NCBI GenBank assembly: GCA_937129395.1
Contig: CAKZNE010000222.1
Location: 1-34,930 of the forward strand
Direction: 5' to 3'
Origin: an uncultured Cryomorphaceae bacterium
Lineage (GTDB): Bacteria; Bacteroidota; Bacteroidia; Flavobacteriales; Schleiferiaceae
Length of the DNA stretch: 34,930 nt
Below are positions 12,416 to 25,980 of this stretch, in pieces. Below the pieces are notes generated by a model. That model was not told the origin of the DNA and made no database searches. It was given only the letters and a program-made list of their open reading frames with translations. Positions within the stretch are counted from its first letter, which is position 1. The number at the start of each line of letters is the position of its first letter. The position numbers and the translations under genes were made by a program.

Positions 12416-13156
12416 TTAAATTTCGCTTAATAATGTCAATTGCCCATTTTTAAACCGGTATTGTTTTATTCCCTCAGAGGAAGTTATGATCATTAAATCA
12501 CCATTTGGAATAATATCAACCGCAGGAATATCTTCAATAGCATTTAAAAGTTTCAACTTGGTAGGATCTGAAACATCAAAAACCTTCACACCATTATCGC
12601 AAATTAATAGTGTATCCCCATAAAGACCTAAGCCTAGGGGCTTGATTAGTGGAAAGGAATTTACTATAAAAGGTTGGTTTAATTGCTCAATATTTACAAT
12701 ATCCAACTGGTTGATATTTCGCCCACAAAAGATATTACCAGGATCTGAGTGCAAAGTGACATAAGCAAATTTGTTATTGGCAACCACTGGGTCGCAACTA
12801 ACAATATGACTATAGGTGCTAATCAAATTTACATTTGGCGGATTGGCGATATCATAAATATGCATTCCACTTGTAGTTCCAATAAAAAGGGTTGCAGAAT
12901 CTCTAGCGAAAATGGTTTCTACATCTACATTAAGGTCTTTATTACTCAGGTAAACGGGATCCGCGGGGTTGGATAAATTAAACAATTTAAGATTTTGCTG
13001 ATCTACTATATATAGGTAGTCTTTAACAACAACAAAACGAGCTAAGCTCCCACCTTGTCCTGTTAATGTTCCATCTGTAGAGGAAAAACCTGCTTCGGAT
13101 TCGCAAGAATTAAAGATTAAAACGAGTGCGATAAAAGGAATGATTAGCTTTTTCAT
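12416..13156 (-). CDS. LVIVD-repeat-type lipoprotein
   Basis: The start is set at 13156: the product then opens MKKLIIPFIALVLIFNSC, a lipoprotein signal with C18 as acylation site. A frame from 13168 would put four residues (MDPK) in front. The body shows repeated units of the form (Y/L)-(I/V)-x-D followed by LKVFDLSNPADP-type turns (for example LYIVDQQNLKLFNLSNPADP, then MHIYDIANPPN, then VKVFDVSDPTK). This is the LVIVD repeat, which builds a beta-propeller-like surface protein. The start overlaps the upstream lipoprotein stop by four bases (ATGA). Function unknown. Confidence 0.85.
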   Translation of the reverse strand: MKKLIIPFIALVLIFNSCESEAGFSSTDGTLTGQGGSLARFVVVKDYLYIVDQQNLKLFNLSNPADPVYLSNKDLNVDVETIFARDSATLFIGTTSGMHIYDIANPPNVNLISTYSHIVSCDPVVANNKFAYVTLHSDPGNIFCGRNINQLDIVNIEQLNQPFIVNSFPLIKPLGLGLYGDTLLICDNGVKVFDVSDPTKLKLLNAIEDIPAVDIIPNGDLMIITSSEGIKQYRFKNGQLTLLSEI

Positions 13157-13662
13157 TTTAGGATCCATTTTACAATTACTGTATTTTCAGGTCTATTTTC
13201 GGCAGTGTATTCAGAAGGAATTCCAAAAACATCTGGCGGTCGTAATTCTGGAAAAACATTTTCGTTTCTATCCAAAAATTCAATGGAATTTCCATTTGCA
13301 ACTCTAAAAGTTACCAGGTCTCGAGTATTGTCGGCATAGAAAATATCCTCTCTAATTGATATATCTATATTTCCAGGAATGGTAATGAATCCTTTGGCCA
13401 CAGGATTGGAAGGATCACTATTGTCGTAAACATGAATGCCTTCAAATTTTTCATTAATAAAAAGCAGGTCACCTTTTATGTATATTTTCCCTGTTGTACC
13501 CAAAATTTTTGGTTCTACCCATTTTATGGAACTCTCCAACGCGGTTCGAGTCATGAGAACAGGTTGGTACTCAGAATAGTAACCAGTTTCGTAGGGCTCC
13601 ACATAGCAAGAGCTAATGAGTAAAGGGATGGTAGCTCCCAATAGCCAGATTATTTTTTTCAT
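13153..13662 (-). CDS. Short LVIVD-type lipoprotein, first gene of the envelope operon
   Basis: The 169-residue product has a lipoprotein signal with C19 in LLISSC. The mature region has GKIYIKGDLLFINEKFEGIHVYDNSDPSNP, one or two LVIVD-like blades, then FPELRPPDVFG and a terminal NTVIVKWI. From memory, related flavobacterial lipoproteins have this N-terminal part followed by further LVIVD blades; here the remaining blades are encoded by the next gene, overlapping by four bases and carrying its own lipobox. The two products may pair. Function unknown. Confidence 0.8.
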   Translation of the reverse strand: MKKIIWLLGATIPLLISSCYVEPYETGYYSEYQPVLMTRTALESSIKWVEPKILGTTGKIYIKGDLLFINEKFEGIHVYDNSDPSNPVAKGFITIPGNIDISIREDIFYADNTRDLVTFRVANGNSIEFLDRNENVFPELRPPDVFGIPSEYTAENRPENTVIVKWILK

Positions 13663-13900
13663 AGTAGTAGGTTTGTGATCTTAGTCACGTAATAAATTAT
13701 AAAAAGGTTAGGTTTTGGCATTTTATTGAGCTCTATTTTAATAGAAATCAAATTCAAATAAGGGTTTTTAAGCTATGTGAATATAGTATTTCTAAAATTA
13801 AAATTCAAGGTTTTAAAATATTTGAAATCAACAAATTGAAGCTTTTTAAAATCGAATAATAATTGATTTTGGAAATGTCATTAACCGCTAAAATTGTACT

Positions 13901-13908
13901 TATATTTG
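13901..13908 (+). promoter_or_regulatory. Promoter -7 element immediately before the exonuclease start codon
   Basis: TATATTTG is a perfect TAnnTTTG with only four bases between it and the GTG start at 13913. Transcription would start at or within a base or two of the start codon, implying a leaderless mRNA. No TTTG is seen 19-21 bases upstream (the nearest is 29 bases away). Confidence 0.5.
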
Positions 13909-13912
13909 CCAC

Positions 13913-15178
13913 GTGTATTGCGTATTAGATATAGAATCAACAGGTGGACCTTTTGGGAAGGAATCCATTATGGAAATCGCCCTTTTTCGTTTTGATGGTG
14001 TGGAAATAGTGGATCAATTAATTAGTTTGGTTCATCCGGATCGGGAGATTCAAAAATATGTTTCCAAAATTACAGGGATTACATCCAAAATGCTGGTAAG
14101 AGCTCCTCGTTTCCATGAAATTGCCAAGCGTATTCTAGAATTAACGGAAGGGGCTGTTTTAGTTGGCCACAATGCTGAATTTGATTACCGGATGCTGAGG
14201 CAAGAGTTTGGAAGATTAGGATATCCTCTTGAATTGCAAACTCTTGATACTATTCCCCTTGCCGAAAAACTTATTCCTGGATTAACTTCCTACGGGCTGG
14301 ATAGAGTTTGTGACGAATTGGGAATTTATCGTGGTCAAAAACACAGGGCGGAAGGAGACGCAAGAGCCACCTTGGATTTGTTGATAATGCTGCTTGAAAA
14401 GGACCAGAGGAAAGATATTAGCATTCTAAACCAAAGCATCCAGAATAACGATCCTATCCAGGATAAAATCCAAGATTTAAAAAGGTCGGTTAAGGCAAAT
14501 CGCGGTATCTATTACCTTCACAATAAAAAAGGTCAGTTACTGTATTTGTCTACATCAGAAAATATAAAGAGCTCTCTTAACAAACTTTTCATTGCTGAAA
14601 ATGACATATCTAAAAAATTAGTTGAAGAGGTTTATTCTGTTGAAGCTGTTTCCACAGGAAATTGGTTGGTTGGTCAGATAAAAAAACTTGAGGAGGCTAA
14701 AAAAGCGAAACCGAAATTCAATGAGATCACGAAACCAAAATTTGGGTTTGCTCTTGTAGAAGATGATTCCCCAAACGATAAACTATTAAGAGTTACCCCA
14801 TTAGAAAAAACGATTTCTGTGGAACCCTTGGTTAAAATTTCATCCCTAAAAGAAGGTTATCGTGCAATTCGGATGATGAGAAGGTCTTTAAATCAAGAGC
14901 AAAAAGAAGAGCTTTTAAAATTATTGAAAAAATTTCCAGACCAAGCTATATTTAGTGGAAAAGGAAGATCAAATGCCGAAAAATGTGCCTTTATTGTTGA
15001 AGGTCAAAAACTAATAGCCTATTATTATTTTAGGCTTAATGAGGAAATTGGAGATCCAAAACGACTTTCCAAAAGCAGGGTACCCATCGATGATTCGGAT
15101 ATTTTAACTCATTTATTAAAAATAGGCATTGTTAGTGGAGAATATAAATTGGTTCAAAAACACGGAATAGTAGTCTAG
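13913..15178 (+). CDS. DnaQ-like 3'-5' exonuclease fused to a degenerate GIY-YIG domain
   Basis: The GTG start gives MYCVLDIESTGG, the normal start of this family. Residues 1-165 are a DEDDh exonuclease with every catalytic residue: D6 and E8 (LDIEST), D91 (GHNAEFDYRML), H144 and D149 (HRAEGDARAT). Residues about 195-265 occupy the place of a GIY-YIG (UvrC/Cho-type) nuclease domain, but only GIY (198-200) survives; YIG is YLS (211-213) and the catalytic Arg is not recognisable. The C-terminal 150 residues are a further domain usual for this Bacteroidota protein. The exonuclease should be active and the second nuclease not. Its stop overlaps the convergent barrel gene by four bases. A DNA repair or proofreading role is inferred. 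Confidence 0.87.
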   Translation: MYCVLDIESTGGPFGKESIMEIALFRFDGVEIVDQLISLVHPDREIQKYVSKITGITSKMLVRAPRFHEIAKRILELTEGAVLVGHNAEFDYRMLRQEFGRLGYPLELQTLDTIPLAEKLIPGLTSYGLDRVCDELGIYRGQKHRAEGDARATLDLLIMLLEKDQRKDISILNQSIQNNDPIQDKIQDLKRSVKANRGIYYLHNKKGQLLYLSTSENIKSSLNKLFIAENDISKKLVEEVYSVEAVSTGNWLVGQIKKLEEAKKAKPKFNEITKPKFGFALVEDDSPNDKLLRVTPLEKTISVEPLVKISSLKEGYRAIRMMRRSLNQEQKEELLKLLKKFPDQAIFSGKGRSNAEKCAFIVEGQKLIAYYYFRLNEEIGDPKRLSKSRVPIDDSDILTHLLKIGIVSGEYKLVQKHGIVV

Positions 15179-15792
15179 AATAATTTAAAGCCAATTCCAA
15201 CTAAAATTTGACTTGCTCTAGCATCAGTTGCATAATCTTCTCCTTCAATTTGTATACTATCGGCCATTTTGCTAAAAGCTCCTTCATACCGGATATCAAT
15301 ACAAATATTTTTCACGTCTAAACCAATCCCAGCTTGGTAGCCCCAAGTAGCGTCTTTTACGCCTTTCTGAAAAGCTTCGTTTGGTTCGCTTATAGTGAAG
15401 CTCATAACTGGACCGGCATTTAATCGCAGGGGTCCCAGTTTTTTTCCTAATAAAATGGGAATATCAAAACGGTTAAATTCAAAATCGAAGGTTTTTACTT
15501 CATTGGATATACTTGTGCTGCTTATCTCATAATTAATATAAGTGTACAAAAGTTCTGTACGAATATGAAACAATGGAAGGTTGATATTGGCATATAATCC
15601 ACCGTGAAAACCGATTTTTTGATCGCCAGTATTTAGATTGTCAATAGTTTGCTGACCTTCAAATTCTTTAATCTCCAATTCTTGAAGGTTAATCCCAGCC
15701 TTAATTCCCAAATTTATTAATTGAGCTTTTGCCGGGTTGAATAATGAAAAAAGGACTAGTAAAAAGGCGCTGTATTTTAAGTTGCGGTTCAT
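15175..15792 (-). CDS. Outer-membrane beta-barrel protein (PorT-like barrel fold)
   Basis: The 205-residue product has a signal peptide ending PAKAQ and a repeated barrel pattern ([84 protein letters not shown], and a terminal [10 protein letters not shown] ending in Phe). This is the general Bacteroidota 'outer membrane beta-barrel' family; individual functions are unknown. Its ATG overlaps the purC stop by four bases (ATGA), so an envelope protein is translated together with a purine enzyme. It is the last gene of phoH-purC-barrel. Confidence 0.83.
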
Positions 15793-16754
15793 TTGATCAA
15801 TTCTTTAATGGCTTTTTCGGTATTTTTAAAAATACGGGCTTCTAGATCAATATTTTCATCATCTGTCTGAAATTTTTCACCAGTGATACTTTCATAAAGT
15901 TCAATATATCTTTCGCTTACACTTTTGATGAAATCATCCGACATGTCAGGTATTTGCTGCCCTTCCTTCCCTTGGAATCCATTTTCAATTAACCATTGTC
16001 TCACAAATTCTTTTGACAATTGCTTTTGTGGAAGATTCGATTCTAAATTTCTGGAATAATCAGCCAAATAAAAATAGCGACTGCTATCGGGGGTGTGAAT
16101 TTCGTCTATAAGGATAATTCTTCCTTCAGAATCCTTTCCAAATTCATATTTGGTGTCCACTAAAATCAATCCTTGCTTATTGGCAAATTCCTGACCTCTA
16201 GCAAAAAGATTTCTCGTTATTTCCTCTAGCTGTAAATAATCCTCCTCACTTACAATTCCTTGATTTAATATTTCTTCTCGAGAAATATCTTCATCATGAT
16301 TTCCCATTTCTGCCTTTGTAGTTGGGGTAAGAATTGGTTTTGAAAAAGCTTCATTTTCCTTCATCCCGTCTGGCATTTCCACTCCACAAATCATTCTTTT
16401 TCCAGAATTATATTCTCTCCATGCATGGCCGGTAAGAAAACCTCGAATCACCATTTCTACCATAAAAGGATCTGCCTTTTTGCCAATTGTCACCATAGGG
16501 TCAGGACAGTTTATTTTCCAATTTGGGATGATGTCGCTAGTTAAATCCAAAAATTTATTGGCGATCTGGTTTAAAACCTGACCTTTATATGGAATGCCTT
16601 CCGGTAATACCACGTCAAAAGCAGAAATTCTATCGCTGGCTACCATCACCAGCAAATCTTCATTAATACTATAAACATCTCGAACCTTGCCTTTGTAAAA
16701 TTTACTTTGTCCAGTCAACTTAAAGTTGGTTTCCCTCAGTGCTTTATTTGTCAT
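15789..16754 (-). CDS. purC: Phosphoribosylaminoimidazole-succinocarboxamide synthase
   Basis: Joins aspartate to CAIR using ATP to form SAICAR in purine synthesis. The 321 residues (the longer form common in Bacteroidota and eukaryotes) show the P-loop-like KGKVRDVY (21-28), SDRISAFD (40-47), VDTKYEFG (199-206) and [12 protein letters not shown] (216-227). The start overlaps the phoH stop by 11 bases and the stop overlaps the barrel gene start by four. No other pur genes are nearby. Confidence 0.96.
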
Positions 16755-17688
16755 CTTCCTTGTCGTAAGCTTTAATAATATTTTTCACCAATCCATGGCG
16801 GATCACATCCCCTTCGTTTAAGTGGATAAAAGAAATTCCTTTGATTTTGCTGAGTATTTTTTGGGCTTCATTTAATCCAGATGCTTGTTTTTTAGGAAGG
16901 TCAATTTGACTAGCATCGCCAGTAACCACAAATTTGGCATCCATTCCCATACGGGTCAGAAACATTTTCATTTGACTACGAGTTGTGTTTTGAGCCTCAT
17001 CTAAAATTACAAATGCGCCGTCCAAGGTTCTTCCCCGCATAAAAGCCAATGGAGCAATTTGTATTACACCAGTTTCCAGGTAATAGGTTAATTTTTCGGC
17101 AGGAATCATATCTCTAAGTGCATCGTAAAGAGGCTGCATATAGGGATCCAATTTTTCTTTTAAATCTCCAGGAAGAAACCCTAAATTTTCACCAGCCTCT
17201 ACAGCAGGTCTGGTAAGAATAATTCTTTTAACTTCTTTATTTTTTAAAGCCTTTACGGCCAAAGCTACTCCAGTATAAGTTTTTCCTGTTCCTGCCGGTC
17301 CAATAGCGAAAAGCATATCGTTGGATTCGATGGCTTTGACCATTTTCCTTTGGTTTACGGTACGAGCTTTTATTGGCTGACCGTTGGATCCGTAAAGGAT
17401 TAGGTTATTGGCATTTTCACTTTCCTTGCTGTCCATTTCCCCTTTTAAAATTCTTTCCAGTTGATTTACTGTCAATGAATTGTATTTGTTTAGATGACGG
17501 ATAATTTCCGCTATCCCATCTTCAAATTGGGCAATATTTTCTTCGGTGCCGTTTATTTTGAGGGAATGCCCTCTGGCTGTAATTTTTAATCCCTTGAAGT
17601 GAGATTTTAGAAGATTTAGATATTTATTGTTACTACCATAAATATCACGCGGATCAGCGTTTTCAATTAGAATGGTTTTTTCTATCAA
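16744..17688 (-). CDS. PhoH-family ATPase
   Basis: A cytoplasmic P-loop ATPase of the PhoH group, linked in other bacteria to RNA metabolism and stress. The 314 residues have an N-terminal KH-like segment (about 1-85), Walker A GPAGTGKT (130-137), Walker [10 protein letters not shown] (226-234), the sensor [10 protein letters not shown] (257-266) and DVIRHGLVK (294-302). The short PhoH form without a PIN domain fits. It is the first gene of the phoH-purC-barrel operon and is transcribed from the symmetric promoter region at 17739-17760. Confidence 0.92.
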
Positions 17689-17738
17689 TGTGGTATTAAT
17701 AACTATTTTAAGTACTGTGTTGCAGCGCTAAATATTGA

Positions 17739-17760
17739 TTACTTTTGGCGTCAAAAGTAA
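17739..17760. promoter_or_regulatory. Symmetric overlapping divergent promoters (phoH operon / SAM-HAT-gld operon)
   Basis: Positions 17740-17759 read TACTTTTGGCGTCAAAAGTA. Each arm is a perfect TAnnTTTG, the left on the plus strand (17740-17747) and the right on the minus strand (17759-17752); one more base on each side also pairs. Each -7 element covers the expected start point of the other transcript, so the two cannot both be occupied by polymerase. The plus transcript leads to the gene at 17812 and the minus one to phoH at 17688. A plus-strand TTG lies 17 bases upstream (17720-17722). Confidence 0.6.
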
Positions 17761-17811
17761 GGATTTTGAATCTCAAATCGTTAGATTTTTTAAATCTTAA
17801 GGATCCTAAGC

Positions 17812-18606
17812 GTGCCAGTAATAACACTCACATCTGATTATGGATTAACAGACCATCATGTGGCCTCTGTTAAAGGTGCTTTGATTAAGGAAATGGAAGA
17901 TTGCCACCTTGTGGATATCTCCCATTTAATTGAGCCCGGAAATTTTTTCGAAGCTGGATTTGTGGTAAGGAATTGTTATCAAGACTTTCCCAAAGGAACA
18001 GTACATTTAATTGCGGTGCAGGAGCTAGTAGAAAATGACAGGCTTCTGGTTGCCGAAATTGATGAGCATTTTTTTATTGCTGCAGATCAAGGAATGATCA
18101 CTTTAATTAATCCCGAAGTAAAAATTTCTAAAGTTGTAGAGGTAAATTTACGTCAGGATAAAACATTGTTTCCGGCAAGGGATATTATGACGAAAGCCGC
18201 ATTGCATATTATTCGTGGTGGTTCTATGGATTTATTGGGAAGGCGAGTTGAGGATTATAAAGAAAGTACCATAATGAGGCCACGAATAACAAATGAAGGG
18301 TCTGTAATTTTGGGAAGTGTAGTTTATATTGATAATTATGGAAACTTAATTACTAATATTTCAAGGAAAATATTTCTTGAAGCTTCAAAGGATAGGGAGC
18401 CAGAGATTTTGTTGCCAAGAAGGCGAACCATTAAGAAAATCCAGGATAATTATTTTCCTTCGTCGCCAGGAAGTGTTATTGCATTATTCAATTCCCAAAA
18501 TTTATTGGAAATTGCGCTCAGCAGATCAAGAGGTAAGGAATATAATGGGGCAAATACTTTATTAGGAATAGAAGTTCAAGGAACGATAAGCGTAAGTTTT
18601 AAATGA
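17812..18606 (+). CDS. SAM hydroxide adenosyltransferase family protein (DUF62) with altered catalytic triad
   Basis: Homologue of the enzymes that split S-adenosylmethionine with hydroxide into adenosine and methionine, related to fluorinase and chlorinase. The GTG start gives MPVITLTSDYGLTDHHVASVKGAL, the family N-terminus; 264 residues is full length. Features are TSDYG (7-11), VDISHLIEPGNFFEAGF (34-50), FPKGTVHL (59-66), ARDIMTKAALHI (122-133) and the C-terminal beta-barrel with YIDNYGNLITNIS. The family triad is Asp-Arg-His. Aligning VHLIAVQELVENDR with the usual VVDPGVGxxR gives Q70 in place of Asp, with R77 and H132 kept; the usual PDNG is ADQG. Its stop overlaps the next start by four bases. 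Confidence 0.88.
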   Translation: MPVITLTSDYGLTDHHVASVKGALIKEMEDCHLVDISHLIEPGNFFEAGFVVRNCYQDFPKGTVHLIAVQELVENDRLLVAEIDEHFFIAADQGMITLINPEVKISKVVEVNLRQDKTLFPARDIMTKAALHIIRGGSMDLLGRRVEDYKESTIMRPRITNEGSVILGSVVYIDNYGNLITNISRKIFLEASKDREPEILLPRRRTIKKIQDNYFPSSPGSVIALFNSQNLLEIALSRSRGKEYNGANTLLGIEVQGTISVSFK

Positions 18607-18896
18607 TAGTAAGAATTGTAAAAATGACTTTTGAACCCAGCAAAGTTCCTGAGTTTTTAGCGAATTTTGAAAAAAATAAAAATAATATCCGAAATTTTAA
18701 AGGATGTCATAAGTTGAGGTTGCTAAAGGGTTTAAATGATGAGAATGTATATTTCACCTATAGTTGGTGGGATAATGAAGAGGCCTTAAATCAATATAGA
18801 ATTTCGAATTTGTTTAAAGGAGTTTGGTCAAAAACCAAAACCTTATTTATTGAAAAACCTGAGGCTTGGAGCCTTGTTAATGCTGTAGAATTATAA
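18603..18896 (+). CDS. Small ABM-fold (antibiotic biosynthesis monooxygenase-like) protein
   Basis: A 97-residue ferredoxin-like alpha/beta barrel protein: MIVRIVKMTFEPSKVPEFLANFEKN, then CHKLRLLKG, then VYFTYSWWDNEEALNQYR and a C-terminal LFIEKPEAWSL. The repeated beta-alpha-beta pattern and W-x-x-x-x-A-L-x-x-Y are typical of ABM-domain monooxygenases and heme-degrading relatives, but no catalytic residue is diagnostic. It overlaps the SAM-HAT homologue by four bases and precedes gldF by three. Role unknown. Confidence 0.8.
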   Translation: MIVRIVKMTFEPSKVPEFLANFEKNKNNIRNFKGCHKLRLLKGLNDENVYFTYSWWDNEEALNQYRISNLFKGVWSKTKTLFIEKPEAWSLVNAVEL

Positions 18897-18899
18897 TAT

Positions 18900-19631
18900 A
18901 TGAGAGCTTTAATGCTAAAGGAAATTAGAAGTTTCCTAAATTCTATAACTGGCTATTTGGTAATCATAGTTTACTTGCTGATAAACAGTGTGTTTTTGTG
19001 GTTATTCTCTGGTAATTTTAATCTTTTGGATGGAAATTATGCAAGCGTAGATAGTTTATTTATTATCTCCCCATGGGTATTTATGTTTTTGATTCCAGCT
19101 ATAACAATGAGGATGTTTGCGGATGAAAAAAAGGGAGGAACCATGGAATTGCTTTTAACCAAACCCTTATCCGATATGAATATCGTGTGGTCTAAATTTA
19201 CCGCAGGGTTTATTCTGGTTTTGCTTTCAATCTTGCCAACGGTCCTATATTATTATAGTATCTATCAACTCGGAAACCCAATAGGGAATATTGATAGCGG
19301 TAGTGTTTTTGGATCCTATATCGGATTATTACTGTTGGGCTCAAGCTATGTCGCTATCGGCGTATTTTCCTCCTCCTTAACAGATAATCAAATCATTAGT
19401 TTTTTAATTTCATTATTTCTATGCTTCTTCTTCTATATTGGATTTGAGGAGATATCGAGTTTGGAAATTTTTAATAATGCAGATTTAATGATTAAAGGAT
19501 TGGGTATAAATGAACATTATAGTTCCATAAGCAGAGGGGTGGTTGATAGTAGGGATATTCTTTATTTCGGCGGATTAATATTCATTTTTGCCCAAGCAAC
19601 AAGGTTGGTGCTTCAAAGTAGAAAATGGTAA
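18900..19631 (+). CDS. gldF: Gliding-motility ABC transporter permease GldF
   Basis: The 243 residues form an ABC-2-type permease with about six membrane spans (about 15-36, 60-80, 101-122, 144-160, 167-190, 219-238). The opening MRALMLKEIRSFLNSITGYLV and the FADEKKGGTMELLLTKPLSDMNIVWSKF loop are characteristic of GldF. In Flavobacterium, GldF and GldG with the ATPase GldA (encoded elsewhere) form an ABC transporter needed for gliding. No gldA is in the window, as in known genomes. It is followed directly by gldG with overlapping stop and start. Confidence 0.92.
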   Translation: MRALMLKEIRSFLNSITGYLVIIVYLLINSVFLWLFSGNFNLLDGNYASVDSLFIISPWVFMFLIPAITMRMFADEKKGGTMELLLTKPLSDMNIVWSKFTAGFILVLLSILPTVLYYYSIYQLGNPIGNIDSGSVFGSYIGLLLLGSSYVAIGVFSSSLTDNQIISFLISLFLCFFFYIGFEEISSLEIFNNADLMIKGLGINEHYSSISRGVVDSRDILYFGGLIFIFAQATRLVLQSRKW

Positions 19632-21346
19632 TGAAAAGTAGAAGATCAAAAGATTTTATCCGGTTTGTATTGGTAGTTGCCATTGTTATTTTGGTAAATA
19701 TTATTGGTTCTTTAAAATTCTTTAGACTAGATCTTACGGCAGAGTCGAGATACAGCCTTTCGGATGCCACAAAGAATCTACTCGAAAGTTTTGACGAGAT
19801 ACTTTATGTAAAAATATATCTGGAAGGTGATTTTCCAGCAGGTTTTCAAAGATTACAAAGGGAATCCAAACAAATGTTGGATGAATTTCGTGCCTACAAT
19901 CCCAGGATTGAATATGAGTTTATTAATCCAAATGAAGGGGAAGATGTAGAGATAAATGATGATATAAAGGAGCAATTGCAATTTAAGGGATTAAAACCTT
20001 ACCAACTTCAGATCAATGATAAAGGAGGTACCTCTACCACCGATGTTTTTCCTGGGGCAATAATGAGCTATGGCGACAAGGAAATACCTGTATTACTGTT
20101 ATTGGATCAAATGGGTGTAAGTCCCGAATCTCAAATCAATAGTTCTATTCAAACATTGGAATTTACCCTTGCAAATGCAATAAGAGGTTTGGTAGTTCAA
20201 GCAAGGCCTACAGTGGGATTTCTTCAAGGGCATGATGAATTGGAACCTCGGTTTGTGGCGGATTTTGCACGGACATTATATGAAAATTATGATGTAGATA
20301 AATTTGATATTCGAAAATATAAAAGCGATAGTACTGGGGAAGAACTTAGCATTTTAGGCCAGCAAAGAAGAATTAATCGATTCGATGCTTTGATTGTTGC
20401 AAAACCTAAAAAACCATTTAGCGATTTAGACAAATATCTTATAGATCAATATGTGATGAATGGGGGTAAGGTGATATGGCTGGTAGATGCCGTGCATGCC
20501 GAAATGGACAGCCTTACAAAAAGAGCTCAATTTTTGGCCTATCCAATTATTGATCAACTTCGGATTTCCGACATGCTTTTTAAATACGGTGCCCGAATTA
20601 ATACAAATATTGTTCAAGATGCAATAGCTGGAGGGGTTTCGGATAGAAAGAGTATTAATAAATGGGTTTATTTTCCATTGATAATGCCTCAAGTAAAACA
20701 TCCGATTACAAAGGACTTAAATGCGATCCAACTCAATTTTGCATCTACCGTAGATACCATTATGGCCAAAGGAATAAAGAAAACGATTTTATTGAAAACC
20801 TCGCCATATTCAACATTTTCACCCAGCCCCCACATGGTGAATTTGGGCAAATTGTATAATGAACCTCCACAGAGTTATTTTAATAAACAGAACCTGCCGG
20901 TTGGAGTTCTTTTGGAAGGGAATTTTGAATCTGCTTTTAAAAACCGAATCGCACCCAAGGAAAATACCGGGGAGGAAATAAAAATAAAAGAGAAAGGAGA
21001 TTTTACACAAATGCTTGTTATTGGAGACGGAGATATTATTAGAAATCAGCTAAGTGTAGTTGATCCAAATATCCCAAAGGGAACTCCTTTACCACTGGGC
21101 TATGATCAATATACCGGTCAGCAATACGGGAATAGGGATTTATTACTTAACGCTGTAGATTATATGCTAGATGACTCAGGTTTGATCAGTATTAGGTCCC
21201 GAGAATTGAAATTGAGGTTATTAAATCCGCAAAAAATAAAGACCGAAAAGGGTTTTTGGAAGCTTTTAAATACAATTGTTCCAGTTTTATTAATTGTAAT
21301 TATGGGTGTGGTTCTAACATTTTTAAGAAAAAGAAAATACGCGTAG
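19631..21346 (+). CDS. gldG: Gliding-motility ABC transporter component GldG
   Basis: About 571 residues: one N-terminal membrane span (FVLVVAIVILVNIIGSL), a large periplasmic region with LDLTAESRYSLSDATKNLL and the GFLQGHDELEP motif of the GldG / ABC-type uncharacterised transport family, and a C-terminal span (about 545-565) followed by RKRKYA. It partners with GldF. The start at 19631 gives a TAATG stop-start overlap with gldF; an ATG six bases earlier is also possible. It sits one base ahead of the DUF4340-like gene, so the three are one operon. Confidence 0.93.
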   Translation: MKSRRSKDFIRFVLVVAIVILVNIIGSLKFFRLDLTAESRYSLSDATKNLLESFDEILYVKIYLEGDFPAGFQRLQRESKQMLDEFRAYNPRIEYEFINPNEGEDVEINDDIKEQLQFKGLKPYQLQINDKGGTSTTDVFPGAIMSYGDKEIPVLLLLDQMGVSPESQINSSIQTLEFTLANAIRGLVVQARPTVGFLQGHDELEPRFVADFARTLYENYDVDKFDIRKYKSDSTGEELSILGQQRRINRFDALIVAKPKKPFSDLDKYLIDQYVMNGGKVIWLVDAVHAEMDSLTKRAQFLAYPIIDQLRISDMLFKYGARINTNIVQDAIAGGVSDRKSINKWVYFPLIMPQVKHPITKDLNAIQLNFASTVDTIMAKGIKKTILLKTSPYSTFSPSPHMVNLGKLYNEPPQSYFNKQNLPVGVLLEGNFESAFKNRIAPKENTGEEIKIKEKGDFTQMLVIGDGDIIRNQLSVVDPNIPKGTPLPLGYDQYTGQQYGNRDLLLNAVDYMLDDSGLISIRSRELKLRLLNPQKIKTEKGFWKLLNTIVPVLLIVIMGVVLTFLRKRKYA

Positions 21347-21347
21347 C

Positions 21348-22367
21348 ATGAATAAAAATTTGATTTACCTCATCTTATTTGTCCTTCTTTTGGGAATTGC
21401 AGGATGGTTGGTTTCCGAGAATAACAATACAGGAACAATTAGCAATAAAGGAAAGGAGGCATACGCGTTTACCATCGCAGATACGGCCTCAGTGGATAAA
21501 ATTATAATCAAAGACAAAACTCCAAATGAAGTTATTCTCAGTCGATCAAATAAAGGTTGGTTGGTTAATGGAGATTTTAGAGCGCGAAAGGAAGCGATCC
21601 ACACTTTATTAGAAACTTTGGCTCGGATGGAAATGAGAAGTTTCATCCAAGATAAAATGCAACAAACCGTAATTAAAAGAATGGCGGTTTATGGTAAAGA
21701 AGTTAATATTTATAAAAATGGGGAGCTCTACAAAATTTTATATGTAGGTACAGAAACCCCAGATGAAATGGCTACCTATATGATGTTAAAAGGAAGTGAC
21801 CAACCTTTTGCAGTTCATATTCCGGGGTTTAATGGCTATTTGTCGTCTAGGTTCTTTTCTCAAGCCCATCTTTGGAGAAGTAGAGATGTAATTACAATTC
21901 CCTCCAATCATATAAGAGAAATTGAAATGGTTTATCCTGATTCAGCTGAAGCATCTTTTAAGTTGACTCGGTACTCTGCCGACAGTTTATTTGTTACTCG
22001 ATTAAATGATGGCTCCATAGTGAAAAAGAGAAATGTAATTAATACCAATTTGTTTTTAAGTGCCTTCCGAAACCTAAAATATGAAGGCGTAATTATTCCA
22101 AGTGATAAGATTTTTTCAAAACAAGATTCGCTTTTATCCAGTACAGCAGTGTTTAAATTAAAGATTACGGATATTCAAGGGGAGCTAACTGAATTAAGCG
22201 GTTACCACATTAAAGCGCCTACAGAAAGTTACGATCCTGATGTGGCATTAAAAGAGTTTGATCCAGATAGGATGTATGGATTTATTAATAATAAACAAAT
22301 GGTTTTGATCCAGTATTATGGACTTAGACATGTTCTAAAAGGACTAGGCTATTTTTCAAACCCTTGA
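21348..22367 (+). CDS. DUF4340-like membrane-anchored protein
   Basis: The 339 residues have one N-terminal membrane span (LIYLILFVLLLGIAGWLV, about 5-22) and a long extracytoplasmic part with DKIIIKDKTPNEVILSRSNKGWLVN and repeated beta-rich segments. This matches the DUF4340 pattern often found beside GldG-like proteins. The start lies one base after the gldG stop, so it is likely an accessory subunit of the GldFG transporter; its biochemical role is unknown. No terminator is apparent before dnaN. Confidence 0.8.
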   Translation: MNKNLIYLILFVLLLGIAGWLVSENNNTGTISNKGKEAYAFTIADTASVDKIIIKDKTPNEVILSRSNKGWLVNGDFRARKEAIHTLLETLARMEMRSFIQDKMQQTVIKRMAVYGKEVNIYKNGELYKILYVGTETPDEMATYMMLKGSDQPFAVHIPGFNGYLSSRFFSQAHLWRSRDVITIPSNHIREIEMVYPDSAEASFKLTRYSADSLFVTRLNDGSIVKKRNVINTNLFLSAFRNLKYEGVIIPSDKIFSKQDSLLSSTAVFKLKITDIQGELTELSGYHIKAPTESYDPDVALKEFDPDRMYGFINNKQMVLIQYYGLRHVLKGLGYFSNP

Positions 22368-22417
22368 CTTTTTTAAATTACTTCTAAAAAGTAGGGTGGA
22401 AAAATTTTAAATCGCTC

Positions 22418-22425
22418 TATATTTG
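22418..22425 (+). promoter_or_regulatory. Promoter -7 element for dnaN
   Basis: TATATTTG is a perfect TAnnTTTG 25 bases before the dnaN ATG. No TTTG is found at 19-21 bases upstream. It lets dnaN be expressed separately from the upstream gld operon. Confidence 0.5.
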
Positions 22426-22450
22426 CTTTCCTTATATAAGAATATTGATT

Positions 22451-23572
22451 ATGAAGTTTATAGTTTCTAGTGGTGCATTACTTAAGCAACTACAGGTTGT
22501 TGGTGGAGTTTTAAATAATAATAACACTCTGGCCATATTGGATAATTTTCTTTTTGAATTAAATGAAAATACACTCAGTATTTCTGCTTCTGATTTAGAA
22601 ACTACAATAAGTTCCAATATAGAGGTGGATAGCACGGATACTGGTTTGGCAGCCGTGCCAGCCAGAATGTTGTTGGATGGTTTAAAAGCTTTACCAGAAC
22701 AACCTGTTACCTTTATTTTCGATCCGTCTTCAAGTACGGTAGAAATGAGCTCTGATTATGGAAAATATTCACTGGCTTTTGTTGAAGGAGACGAGTTTCC
22801 AAAACTTCCAGAAATGGAGGATATTCACACCACTGTTATTCCAGGAGATACCCTAGGGTCTGCAATTAATAAAACTTTGTTCGCTGCTGGGAATGATGAG
22901 CTTAGACCCGTAATGTCTGGCGTGTTTTTTCAGTTTGCTAGTGATAGCCTAACTTTTGTAGCCACAGACGCTCATAAACTAGTTCGGTATAGAAGAACAG
23001 ATTTAAGCAGTGATCATACAGTGGAGTTCATAATGCCTAGAAAACCTTTGACCATTCTTAAGAGCACATTGAGCTCTGGAGCGCAAGAGGTAAAAATTCA
23101 TTACAATGATACAAACGCTCGTTTTGAGTTTGAAAATATCATACTTACCTGTAGATTAATTGACGGTAAATACCCAAATTATGAGGCGGTAATCCCAAAA
23201 GAAAATCCGAATAAAATGGAGATTGAAAGAGTTAGTTTCCATAGCTCAGTAAAAAGGGTGGCGATTTTCTCAAATAAAACAACACATCAAGTAAGATTGA
23301 AGTTGGCAGGATCTGAATTAAACGTTTCTGCTGAGGATATTGACTTTTCAAATAAAGCTCATGAAAGATTGAGTTGTAATTACCAAGGCGATGATATGGA
23401 AATTGGTTTTAATAGCCGTTTTCTAAGCGAAATGTTAAGCAACCTTGATTCCGATTCCATAAGTTTAGAAATGTCCGCTCCAAATAGAGCTGGAATTATA
23501 TTGCCAAATGATGGATTAGAAGAAGGGGAAGATATTCTTATGCTGGTTATGCCAGTGATGCTAAACAGCTAA
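22451..23572 (+). CDS. dnaN: DNA polymerase III sliding clamp (beta subunit)
   Basis: Ring clamp that holds DNA polymerase III on DNA. The start is ATG 22451 (MKFIVSSGALLKQLQ), the usual beginning; a TTG two codons earlier is less likely. The 373 residues make three clamp domains, with PARMLLDGLKALPEQPV in the first, MSGVFFQF...FVATDAHKLVRYR in the second and GFNSRFLSEML in the third; the C-terminal LMPVMLNS is the standard ending. As in other Bacteroidota it is away from dnaA, behind gldFG. Confidence 0.97.
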   Translation: MKFIVSSGALLKQLQVVGGVLNNNNTLAILDNFLFELNENTLSISASDLETTISSNIEVDSTDTGLAAVPARMLLDGLKALPEQPVTFIFDPSSSTVEMSSDYGKYSLAFVEGDEFPKLPEMEDIHTTVIPGDTLGSAINKTLFAAGNDELRPVMSGVFFQFASDSLTFVATDAHKLVRYRRTDLSSDHTVEFIMPRKPLTILKSTLSSGAQEVKIHYNDTNARFEFENIILTCRLIDGKYPNYEAVIPKENPNKMEIERVSFHSSVKRVAIFSNKTTHQVRLKLAGSELNVSAEDIDFSNKAHERLSCNYQGDDMEIGFNSRFLSEMLSNLDSDSISLEMSAPNRAGIILPNDGLEEGEDILMLVMPVMLNS

Positions 23573-23586
23573 TTTTTTTTCTTGCA

Positions 23587-24255
23587 GTGAAAATTCTTGT
23601 TGTAGGTGATGTCCATGGATGTTATTATACCCTAAAAAAGTTAATTACTGAAAATTGGAATCCCGAAGAGGAGTGTTTAGTGCAATTGGGCGACCTTATA
23701 AATAAGGGCCCTAACTCCATTAAATGCCTAAAATATTTTAAAAAACTTCAGAAAAAATATCCTTCTAAAGTGATTTTTCTTCGCGGAAATCACGAGCAAA
23801 TGTTCTTGGACTATTTTCAAAAACAAAAGAAAAATCGATTTATCTCTGATCTAGTAAGAGAAATGGAATCTCAGGAAGTAAATGTTACTAAAATTTTAAA
23901 ATGGCTTTCCAAAAGTGATTTGTTTTGGGAAAATGAGTCCGTTTTAATTTCCCATGCCGGAATTGGGAATTCTTGTAAAATACCCCTAGAAGAAAACGAC
24001 CCGAAAGGAGTGCTTTATAACCGTGAAGGATTGAAAAACATCGGTCGATTACAAATTGCAGGACATACCATAGTTGAGGGAAATAAACCGCACTTTAACC
24101 CAAAAGAAAATGCCTGGCATATTGATACAGGAGCATGGATAAAAAAGAGTTTAACAGGTTTAAAGTTGAATGAAGACGCAACTAACATCACAGTTATAAA
24201 AGAGGCTCGTCATAAAAAGGACAATCAAAGTCTTTATTCACGCGGTATCCTGTGA
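23587..24255 (+). CDS. Calcineurin-like metallophosphoesterase (PPP-type phosphatase)
   Basis: A 222-residue two-metal phosphatase of the Ser/Thr protein phosphatase-ApaH type. Metal-binding motifs are all present: GDVHG (D8, H10), GDLINKGP (D36; most homologues have GDxIDRGP), RGNHE (N68, H69), SHAG (H123) and AGHT (H160). The start is GTG 23587, 14 bases after dnaN, giving MKILVVGDVHG as expected. Substrate unknown: phosphoprotein or a dinucleoside polyphosphate are both possible. It may be read through from dnaN. Confidence 0.88.
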   Translation: MKILVVGDVHGCYYTLKKLITENWNPEEECLVQLGDLINKGPNSIKCLKYFKKLQKKYPSKVIFLRGNHEQMFLDYFQKQKKNRFISDLVREMESQEVNVTKILKWLSKSDLFWENESVLISHAGIGNSCKIPLEENDPKGVLYNREGLKNIGRLQIAGHTIVEGNKPHFNPKENAWHIDTGAWIKKSLTGLKLNEDATNITVIKEARHKKDNQSLYSRGIL

Positions 24256-24289
24256 ATTTTATTAAGATACTATTCAAGTAGTTTTTGAC

Positions 24290-24320
24290 TTGGTTAAGGA
24301 TTTAGTTTCCATTAATTTTG
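24290..24320 (+). promoter_or_regulatory. Promoter for pruA
   Basis: TTG (24290-24292), 20 bases, then TAATTTTG (24313-24320): both Bacteroidota elements at the normal spacing. Transcription would start about 25 bases before the ATG at 24349. Confidence 0.65.
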
Positions 24321-24348
24321 CATTCCATAAATATTAAAACACGACATA

Positions 24349-25980
24349 ATGATTAAAGGATTTTACAATGTACCCTTGGCAATGAATGAACCGATTTTGA
24401 GCTATGCTCCGGGAAGTTCAGAGCGTGAGGAATTGCAAGCTACTTACGATAAAATGTGGGGAGAAACTATTGATATTCCCATGGTAATTAATGGTGAAAA
24501 AGTTTCTACTGGTAATATGGGTCGTGTAATTCCTCCTCATGATCACCAACATAATGTGGGCACTTACCATATTGGAGATGCGTCCCATGTAAATGCTGCT
24601 ATCGAAGCTTCCTTAGCTGCCAAAGAAAACTGGGAAAACATGAGTTGGGAAAATAGATCTACTATCTTTTTAAAAGCAGCAGATTTATTAGCAGGTCCGT
24701 ATAGAGCAAGAATCAATGCGGCAACTATGATCAACCAAGGTAAAAATGCTTTTCAAGCGGAAATTGATGCCTCTTGCGAAATGATCGATTTTTTAAGATA
24801 TAATGTTCAGTATGTAACTGATATTTATGCAGAACAACCAGATTCTGGTGAAGGCGTTTGGAATAGATTAGATTTTAGACCATTAGAAGGTTTTACTTTT
24901 GCAATTACTCCTTTTAATTTTACAGCTATTGCTGGAAACCTAACAACAAGTATGGCCATGTTGGGAAATACCGTTGTTTGGAAACCTTCCTTTAGTCAGA
25001 TATACTCCGCTAAAGTTTTAATGGATGTTTTTGAAGAAGCAGGATTACCAGCCGGAGTAATAAATATGATTTTTACGGATCCTGTGGAAACTTCTGATAT
25101 TGTTTTCAATCACCCAGATTTTGCAGGACTTCATTTCACAGGTTCTACAGATGTATTTAAAAACATTTGGGGAACTATCGGGACTAATATTCATAAATAC
25201 AAAACCTACCCAAGAATTGTTGGAGAAACTGGAGGAAAGGATTTTGTTGTAGCCCATAAAAGTGCGAATGCAGAAGAAGTTGCTACTGGCTTAATGAGGG
25301 GTTCATTCGAGTACCAAGGACAAAAATGTAGCGCTGCATCTAGAGCCTATGTTCCTAGTTCCATGTGGCCAGAAGTGAAATCTATCATGCAAAGAGAAAT
25401 GGCTACCATGAAAATGGGAAGCCCTAGAGATTTTACAAATTATATTAATGCTGTAATTCACGAAGGGTCTTTTGATAAAATTGCTTCTTTTATTGATGCT
25501 GCCAAAAAAGATTCCAATGTGGAAATTATTGCTGGTGGAGGATATGATAAATCCAAAGGATATTTTATTGAACCTACTGTAATTGTAGCTCAAGATCCAA
25601 AATACACCACAATGTGTACAGAGCTATTTGGACCTGTTCTTACTTTATATGTTTATGATGACGATAAATTTGAAGAGACTTTGAATTTGGTAGATGAGAC
25701 GTCGATTTACGCCCTAACCGGTTCTATTTTTAGTAAAGATAGATATGCGGTAGAGCTAGCCACCCAGAAATTGAAAAATGCTGCAGGTAACTTTTACATC
25801 AATGATAAACCCACAGGAGCAGTTGTTGGTCAGCAACCCTTTGGTGGAGCTAGAGCCTCTGGTACAAATGATAAAGCAGGATCAATGCTAAATCTTTTAA
25901 GATGGATGAGCCCAAGAACAACTAAAGAAACCTTGGTTACGCCAAGAAACTATAGATATCCTTTCTTATCGGAAGATTAA
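24349..25980 (+). CDS. pruA: 1-pyrroline-5-carboxylate dehydrogenase
   Basis: Oxidises pyrroline-5-carboxylate (as glutamate semialdehyde) to glutamate, the second step of proline breakdown. The 543 residues are a full aldehyde dehydrogenase: N190 in PFNFT, FTGST (263-267), E293 in VGETGGKDF and nucleophile C327 in GQKCSAASR. The N-terminus (FYNVPLAMNEPILSYAPGSSERE) and the C-terminal GGARASGTNDKAGS are those of the mono-functional eukaryotic-like P5C dehydrogenases. The proline dehydrogenase is not in the window. It has its own promoter and terminator. Confidence 0.96.
   Translation: MIKGFYNVPLAMNEPILSYAPGSSEREELQATYDKMWGETIDIPMVINGEKVSTGNMGRVIPPHDHQHNVGTYHIGDASHVNAAIEASLAAKENWENMSWENRSTIFLKAADLLAGPYRARINAATMINQGKNAFQAEIDASCEMIDFLRYNVQYVTDIYAEQPDSGEGVWNRLDFRPLEGFTFAITPFNFTAIAGNLTTSMAMLGNTVVWKPSFSQIYSAKVLMDVFEEAGLPAGVINMIFTDPVETSDIVFNHPDFAGLHFTGSTDVFKNIWGTIGTNIHKYKTYPRIVGETGGKDFVVAHKSANAEEVATGLMRGSFEYQGQKCSAASRAYVPSSMWPEVKSIMQREMATMKMGSPRDFTNYINAVIHEGSFDKIASFIDAAKKDSNVEIIAGGGYDKSKGYFIEPTVIVAQDPKYTTMCTELFGPVLTLYVYDDDKFEETLNLVDETSIYALTGSIFSKDRYAVELATQKLKNAAGNFYINDKPTGAVVGQQPFGGARASGTNDKAGSMLNLLRWMSPRTTKETLVTPRNYRYPFLSED

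Follow-up and report, generated by a model that had tools for sequence, protein, structure and literature searches.

The window analysed here, a stretch of 34,930 nucleotides of DNA, contains two tightly packed gene clusters that diverge from a 123-bp gap. On the minus strand, phoH (16744–17688; Pfam PhoH, 2.5e-94; TTG start) overlaps purC (15789–16754; SAICAR synthetase, 4.8e-70; NF009251, 478.8 bits against a cut-off of 371), which in turn overlaps a gene for an outer-membrane beta-barrel protein (15175–15792; PF13568, 4.2e-12). On the plus strand, a homologue of SAM hydroxide adenosyltransferase (SAM-HAT; 17812–18606; SAM_HAT_N, 2.8e-35; SAM_HAT_C, 3.1e-16; GTG start) overlaps a gene for a small ABM-domain protein (18603–18896; PF03992, 1.9e-13) and is followed by gldF (18900–19631; TIGR03518, 316.8 bits, cut-off 288.5), gldG (19625–21346, overlapping gldF; TIGR03521, 596.5 bits, cut-off 389.85) and a gene for a DUF4340 protein (21348–22367; PF14238, 1.9e-09), the final gene ahead of a 77-nt gap. 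Adjacent genes of the phoH cluster overlap at their ends; those of the SAM-HAT cluster either overlap or stand a few bases apart. GldF, GldG and PurC all exceed their curated NCBIfam cut-offs. The first-pass annotation had placed gldF and gldG, as probable members, in the plus-strand operon, an assignment borne out by these scores and by the gene order of a sampled relative (G005), in which purC-phoH / SAM-HAT-ABM-gldF-gldG-DUF4340-dnaN are arranged as in the window. No barrel gene was found beside purC in G005 at E 1e-8, this being the one relative readable further in that direction. The label of a "stress" operon, which had been given to the phoH side, has the name PhoH as its sole basis.

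Between the two divergent units, positions 17739–17760 read TTACTTTTGGCGTCAAAAGTAA and hold two exact TAnnTTTG boxes set face to face. TACTTTTG lies on the plus strand at 17740–17747, as the −7 box predicted for SAM-HAT-ABM-gldF-gldG-DUF4340, and again on the minus strand at 17752–17759, as the −7 box predicted for phoH-purC-barrel (the phoH arm being TACTTTTGA); they are separated by a GCGT spacer (17748–17751, no strand), the length of which is not conserved among relatives. Each arm is positioned where its own operon would require a promoter. The sequence confirms the two perfect, opposed TAnnTTTG elements with a four-base centre that had been described at first reading, and the arms form perfect inverted repeats of nine bases flanking GCGT. 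Singly, TAnnTTTG occurs in the window at chance level (49 observed versus 49.4 expected), and the facing pair TAnnTTTG-N4-CAAAnnTA occurs once versus 0.01 expected (a single shuffle in 100 contained it). Neither strand of the phoH/SAM-HAT gap contains a further exact TAnnTTTG beyond the two arms, leaving each operon with one exact box there. At up to one mismatch, TACTTTTG-N4-CAAAAGTA has a single copy in its own assembly, which comprises 346 contigs and 3.8 Mb and is 91% complete; it is therefore no dispersed repeat in that assembly. We also considered an RNA element at the site and rejected it, since Rfam gave no match at gathering scores across 13000–24500.

We then compared the locus among relatives. 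SAM-HAT was present in 55 of 60 genomes, our own included. From 56 SAM-HAT matches we took 54 loci, two partial matches in G017 being excluded, and phoH lay divergently upstream of SAM-HAT in 51 of them; the other three (L018, L024, L025), with no phoH in the fetched flank, were left out of the 51-locus set and show no facing pair. As judged from these sequences, the divergent phoH/SAM-HAT gene pair is old. A facing pair was defined as an exact SAM-HAT-side TAnnTTTG opposed to a phoH-side TAnnTTTG or TAnnTTGY, with 0–7 nt between them. Exact pairs were present in 33 of the 51 loci, compared with a mean of 0.175 and a maximum of 2 in 200 shuffles of the gaps (0.23 and 2 in a repeat with 100 shuffles), and the distance between the arms ranged over 0–7 nt across these 33. 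Counted per genus, 21 of the 32 genera with adjacent phoH and SAM-HAT have an exact pair. The remaining 18 loci have none; when one mismatch in total was allowed, 45 of 51 loci qualified (shuffles, mean 4.72, maximum 10; 100 shuffles), and six (L013, L016, L022, L044, L050, L055) had no facing pair even then. Regardless of position within the intergenic region, 41 of the 51 adjacent loci have an exact SAM-HAT-side TAnnTTTG, and an exact facing pair is still present in L059, where the gap measures 37 bp to the aligned gene starts. The fetched flank includes purC in 44 of the 51 loci; downstream flank sequence was available for 30 loci, of which 29 contain gldF. The gldF/gldG layout is also retained in genomes without the facing pair (L013, L016).

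For the set from beyond the order we took the 30 loci that scored best out of 146 genomes matched by phoH, plus a further batch; it yielded 26 adjacent loci, of which L086 belongs to the order (and has no pair), so that 25 were counted, four of them with an exact pair. Where phoH has no SAM-HAT in the fetched flank, inspection by eye showed that six of ten loci (L075, L088, L096, L097, L098, L100) have an exact TAnnTTTG no more than 130 nt upstream and that another (L099) has TAnnTTGY upstream. An upstream TAnnTTTG at a separated phoH fits a promoter, which does not in itself demonstrate that the arm travels with the gene.

The phoH arm varies in a consistent manner. TAnnTTTG stands on both sides in only 5 of the 51 loci (the window, L027, L029, L059 and L062), and in 28 loci, both congeners among them, the phoH arm is TAnTTTG followed by a pyrimidine (TAnTTTGY); the base after the G of this phoH-side TAnTTTG is a pyrimidine in 28 of 28 cases, drawn from related and thus not independent genomes. 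In an alignment with the two congeners, the arms of which are TAnTTTGY, the phoH arm of the window carries one additional base, as read from a single 346-contig assembly. The perfect palindrome is not the conserved feature, and it is probably a local form that arose from a one-base change. The prediction that both arms are conserved in relatives thus holds for the facing pair, present in 33 of 51 loci, and not for the phoH arm as TAnnTTTG. The first-pass annotation had named loss of one arm in close relatives as what would count against it; on a strict reading, in terms of TAnnTTTG, its claim fails, the arm being altered in the congeners and not lost. In 35 loci anchored on the plus-strand CAAA, places 6–9 hold T in 30, A in 30, A in 34 and C in 27, a column profile that gives an extended phoH arm of GTTAnTTTG on the minus strand and is weak outside the arms.

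TAnTTTGY matches TAnnTTGY, so that these 28 of 51 loci conform to SM5, a motif of Flavobacterium psychrophilum putatively read by an alternative sigma (PMC9723704). Passages of that paper give SM5 the same −12 to −5 position as the primary box but one base less between TA and TTG, hold an alternative sigma to be its most likely reader, and report promoter mutagenesis of one operon, remFG-sprCDBF, in which the conserved bases of SM5 matter (PMC9723704). The SM5 promoters given in its main text are a selection, and "PhoH" is absent from that main text. In the window gap, TAnnTTGY is absent from both strands, and the window arm does not fit SM5. Across three sampled genomes, TAnTTTGY was not enriched in the sense orientation (61 sense, 0.38/kb, versus 76 antisense, 0.34/kb). 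The extended form GTTAnTTTGY gave 7 sense and 0 antisense occurrences in one genome, and 5 sense and 2 antisense in three genomes (sense within 150 nt). We rejected GTTAnTTTGY as a genome-wide promoter word because these occurrences are too few over three genomes and TAnTTTGY is unenriched; we claim no regulon.

TAnnTTTG itself gave a different picture in the same three relatives, with genes called by a simple longest-ORF rule. It occurred 416 times in the sense orientation (2.60/kb, within 150 nt of a gene) versus 101 times antisense (0.45/kb, over whole gaps), a sense enrichment of 5.7-fold per kb with the sense count confined to those 150 nt; without that limit, the sense densities were 1.55, 1.62 and 2.39 per kb versus 0.41, 0.28 and 0.84 antisense. 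By its distribution, TAnnTTTG behaves as a promoter box in these genomes. The 261 divergent gaps of the three genomes contain 64 exact box pairs, of which 9 are facing pairs with k 0–7, compared with a mean of 2.35 and a maximum of 8 over 2000 runs of a null in which box-to-gene distances were drawn from the data. This suggests that the facing layout is preferred beyond a short-gap effect, though the number is small. Over 99 genomes, the k=4 facing pattern showed no clear genome-wide excess (118 matches versus 100 for reversed controls), and the k=24 pattern gave 104 versus 67 for controls. Of the 118 k=4 matches, the 30 with listed loci were classed, with the simple longest-ORF gene caller, as 7 divergent gaps, 7 tandem, 2 convergent, 12 coding and 2 undetermined.

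A further TAnnTTTG facing pair (N4) was seen in three genomes near position 1500 of L343, L344 and L345, between an 888-nt gene and a gene of 573–576 nt with about 20 nt on either side, making it a second recurring instance of the facing layout.

A public scan for TACTTTTGNNNNCAAAAGTA returned at least 116 stretches, with titles known for 80. Among the matches listed, 25 in 23 loci belong to Bacteroidota by title (7 divergent, 5 tandem, 5 convergent, 4 coding, 4 undetermined); the other 97 listed, untitled loci included, fall into 7 divergent, 17 tandem, 5 convergent, 28 coding and 40 undetermined. Several matches resemble repeats, and the distribution is not decisive. The exact palindrome TACTTTTGACCGCAAAAGTA recurs, among the matches listed, in L245, L246, L266 and L280 (Sphingobacterium, Parapedobacter and a member of the Bacteroidetes); L245 has two copies, and in those genomes the sequence has the look of a dispersed repeat. 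The TACTTTTGNNNNCAAAAGTA form also appears in several Gracilibacteria loci among the matches listed.

The primary-sigma promoter of Bacteroidota is described in passages on Bacteroides thetaiotaomicron (PMC7366714) and F. psychrophilum (PMC9723704) as TAnnTTTG at −7, and both arms in the window are exact matches to this consensus. With a box placed at −12 to −5 (PMC9723704), the predicted +1 of the SAM-HAT operon falls at 17752 on the plus strand (leader of about 60 nt) and that of the phoH operon at 17747 on the minus strand (leader of about 59 nt). These predicted starts are about 5 bp apart, each at the edge of the opposite box; the starts suggested at first reading, 17751 (plus) and 17748 (minus), came within one base of them. 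TTG at the usual −33 distance (16–23 nt upstream) is unenriched on either side, with 7 occurrences in 33 loci on each, the general rate being 0.24–0.32 per sense box. In the window, as read by eye, the plus side has TTG at 17720–17722, 17 nt upstream of the box, and the minus side has none at 16–23 nt; its TTTG lies only 14 nt upstream.

Divergent initiation from a single short site is established in Escherichia coli and Salmonella, where the transcripts of bidirectional promoters begin inside a shared −10 element or to either side of it (PMC12825309, PMC10268837; Warman, Grainger and colleagues). According to passages of these papers, the divergent starts are most often 18 bp apart, with 10 and 23 also common (PMC12825309), the class is defined by opposite-strand starts 7–25 bp apart (PMC10268837), and competition in E. 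coli arose only on strong activation (PMC12825309). The site in the window resembles these promoters, as they are described there, in being short, near-symmetric and predicted to start divergent transcripts, with binding in either direction exclusive of the other. It differs in having two whole facing boxes, at 17740–17747 and 17752–17759, which do not overlap and so share no −10, and in predicted starts about 5 bp apart, which is below the 7–25 bp range. TAnnTTTG is not self-complementary, so that symmetry would need two boxes, which may account for the difference from E. coli. By analogy, the site may be said to function like an E. coli bidirectional promoter without being a member of that type. 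The word "bidirectional" is absent from the main texts of PMC7366714 and PMC9723704, in passages of which no facing pairs are described. Our literature searches returned no paper on bidirectional promoters with Bacteroides transcription start sites, on divergent promoters with Bacteroidetes TTTG, or joining phoH and SAM hydroxide adenosyltransferase.

From the sequence, the gene layout, its conservation and the statistics, we infer promoter activity, start sites and shared binding at this locus. The site is in our judgement quite probably a bidirectional promoter in which two −7 boxes face each other, each over the predicted start of the other, and the promoter is probably a housekeeping one. 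Polymerase with the primary sigma would bind in either orientation and produce two transcripts that do not overlap, rightward SAM-HAT-ABM-gldFG and leftward phoH-purC-barrel. Because the footprints would overlap, only one polymerase could be bound at a time; at ordinary activity, this exclusion of a second polymerase need not matter. Most relatives with an exact pair would use the TAnTTTGY variant as the phoH arm, and one added base would have turned it into the standard TAnnTTTG here, which would be why the palindrome is perfect in the window. Counting against this reading are the loci with no exact pair, the few pairs beyond the order, the k=4 pattern with no clear genome-wide excess, the unenriched −33 TTG and the unenriched TAnTTTGY.

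The nearest competitor to this reading, which we regard as a serious minority view, assigns the arms to two classes of polymerase: the primary sigma would read the SAM-HAT arm, and an SM5 factor would read the phoH arm of most relatives that have a pair, with the asymmetry lost in the lineage of the window. The invariant pyrimidine after TAnTTTG in the facing arms is what SM5 demands; its TA and TTG stand one base tighter than in the primary box, with the remFG-sprCDBF mutagenesis backing its bases (PMC9723704), and the phoH arm is extended as GTTAnTTTG. Yet the extended word is too rare to define a regulon, the passages of PMC9723704 name no sigma for SM5, and related loci alternate between TAnTTTGY and TAnnTTTG, both of which one polymerase could read. 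The first-pass annotation had proposed a mutually exclusive switch, in which competition for the site would set the balance between phoH-purC and SAM-HAT-gldFG. Boxes 4 bp apart would indeed force polymerase footprints to overlap, and strong one-way activation in E. coli can repress the opposite direction (PMC12825309). The five E. coli bidirectional promoters tested, however, all had basal activity below the level at which they would compete, as that paper reports, the arm spacing varies among relatives, and no conserved regulator site is evident by the arms in the 35-locus column profile. The switch is thus unsupported, and we consider it improbable: nothing in our analysis points to activation, to a site for a regulator or to needs that would set the two operons against each other.

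Two further readings of the palindrome are less likely still. It could be the operator of a dimeric regulator lying over one or both promoters, as perfectly inverted nine-base arms around GCGT might suggest, but an arm distance of 0–7 nt among relatives argues against a fixed site, both congeners lack perfect symmetry, and the own assembly holds no second copy at up to one mismatch. Because the spacing between the arms is variable, two promoters fit better than a dimer operator, which we disfavour on this ground and on that of the asymmetric congeners and hold to be very improbable. It could also be a dispersed intergenic repeat or a functionless chance palindrome, in keeping with the many other genomes that contain TACTTTTGNNNNCAAAAGTA, a few loci among them having it twice in identical form. 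This last reading we find scarcely credible, for facing boxes recur at the same place and in the same orientation in 33 of 51 related loci; a dispersed repeat was rejected on the one copy, at up to one mismatch, in an own assembly that is 91% complete.

Returning to the facing-box promoter, we tentatively extend it, as a speculation somewhat weaker than the two-class reading, to a bidirectional promoter type of the Bacteroidota themselves, built from facing boxes because TAnnTTTG cannot mirror itself. On that proposal, different polymerase forms, one with the primary sigma and one with an SM5-like factor, would ancestrally have read the two faces at phoH/SAM-HAT, a two-sigma site that would have become symmetric in this lineage by a one-base insertion. 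If the facing-box reading is right, the geometry of bidirectional promoters in Bacteroidota would differ from that known in E. coli: predicted starts would lie 2–9 bp apart, and many such sites would be too close for the 7–25 bp definition and hence missed by surveys that use it. The locus would also offer a widely conserved and readily testable place to study promoter competition, and a test of the distinction between SM5-type and primary-type boxes, which in this genus would amount to one base.

Several minor observations concern the genes themselves. The block phoH / SAM-HAT-ABM-gldF-gldG (16744–21346 in the window; L003–L031) is widely retained, and phoH also adjoins SAM-HAT beyond the order, in 25 loci. 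The phoH start codon is TTG (17686–17688 in the window), and TTG also stands at the aligned first codon of phoH in 37 of the 51 related loci and in many of the loci examined beyond the order, a weak start codon that has seemingly been retained across long evolution. Past the gld operon by 77 nt, dnaN (22418–23572 in the window, box included) has its own TAnnTTTG at 22418–22425, 19 nt before its start, and read-through from the gld operon may link expression of the sliding clamp to that operon.
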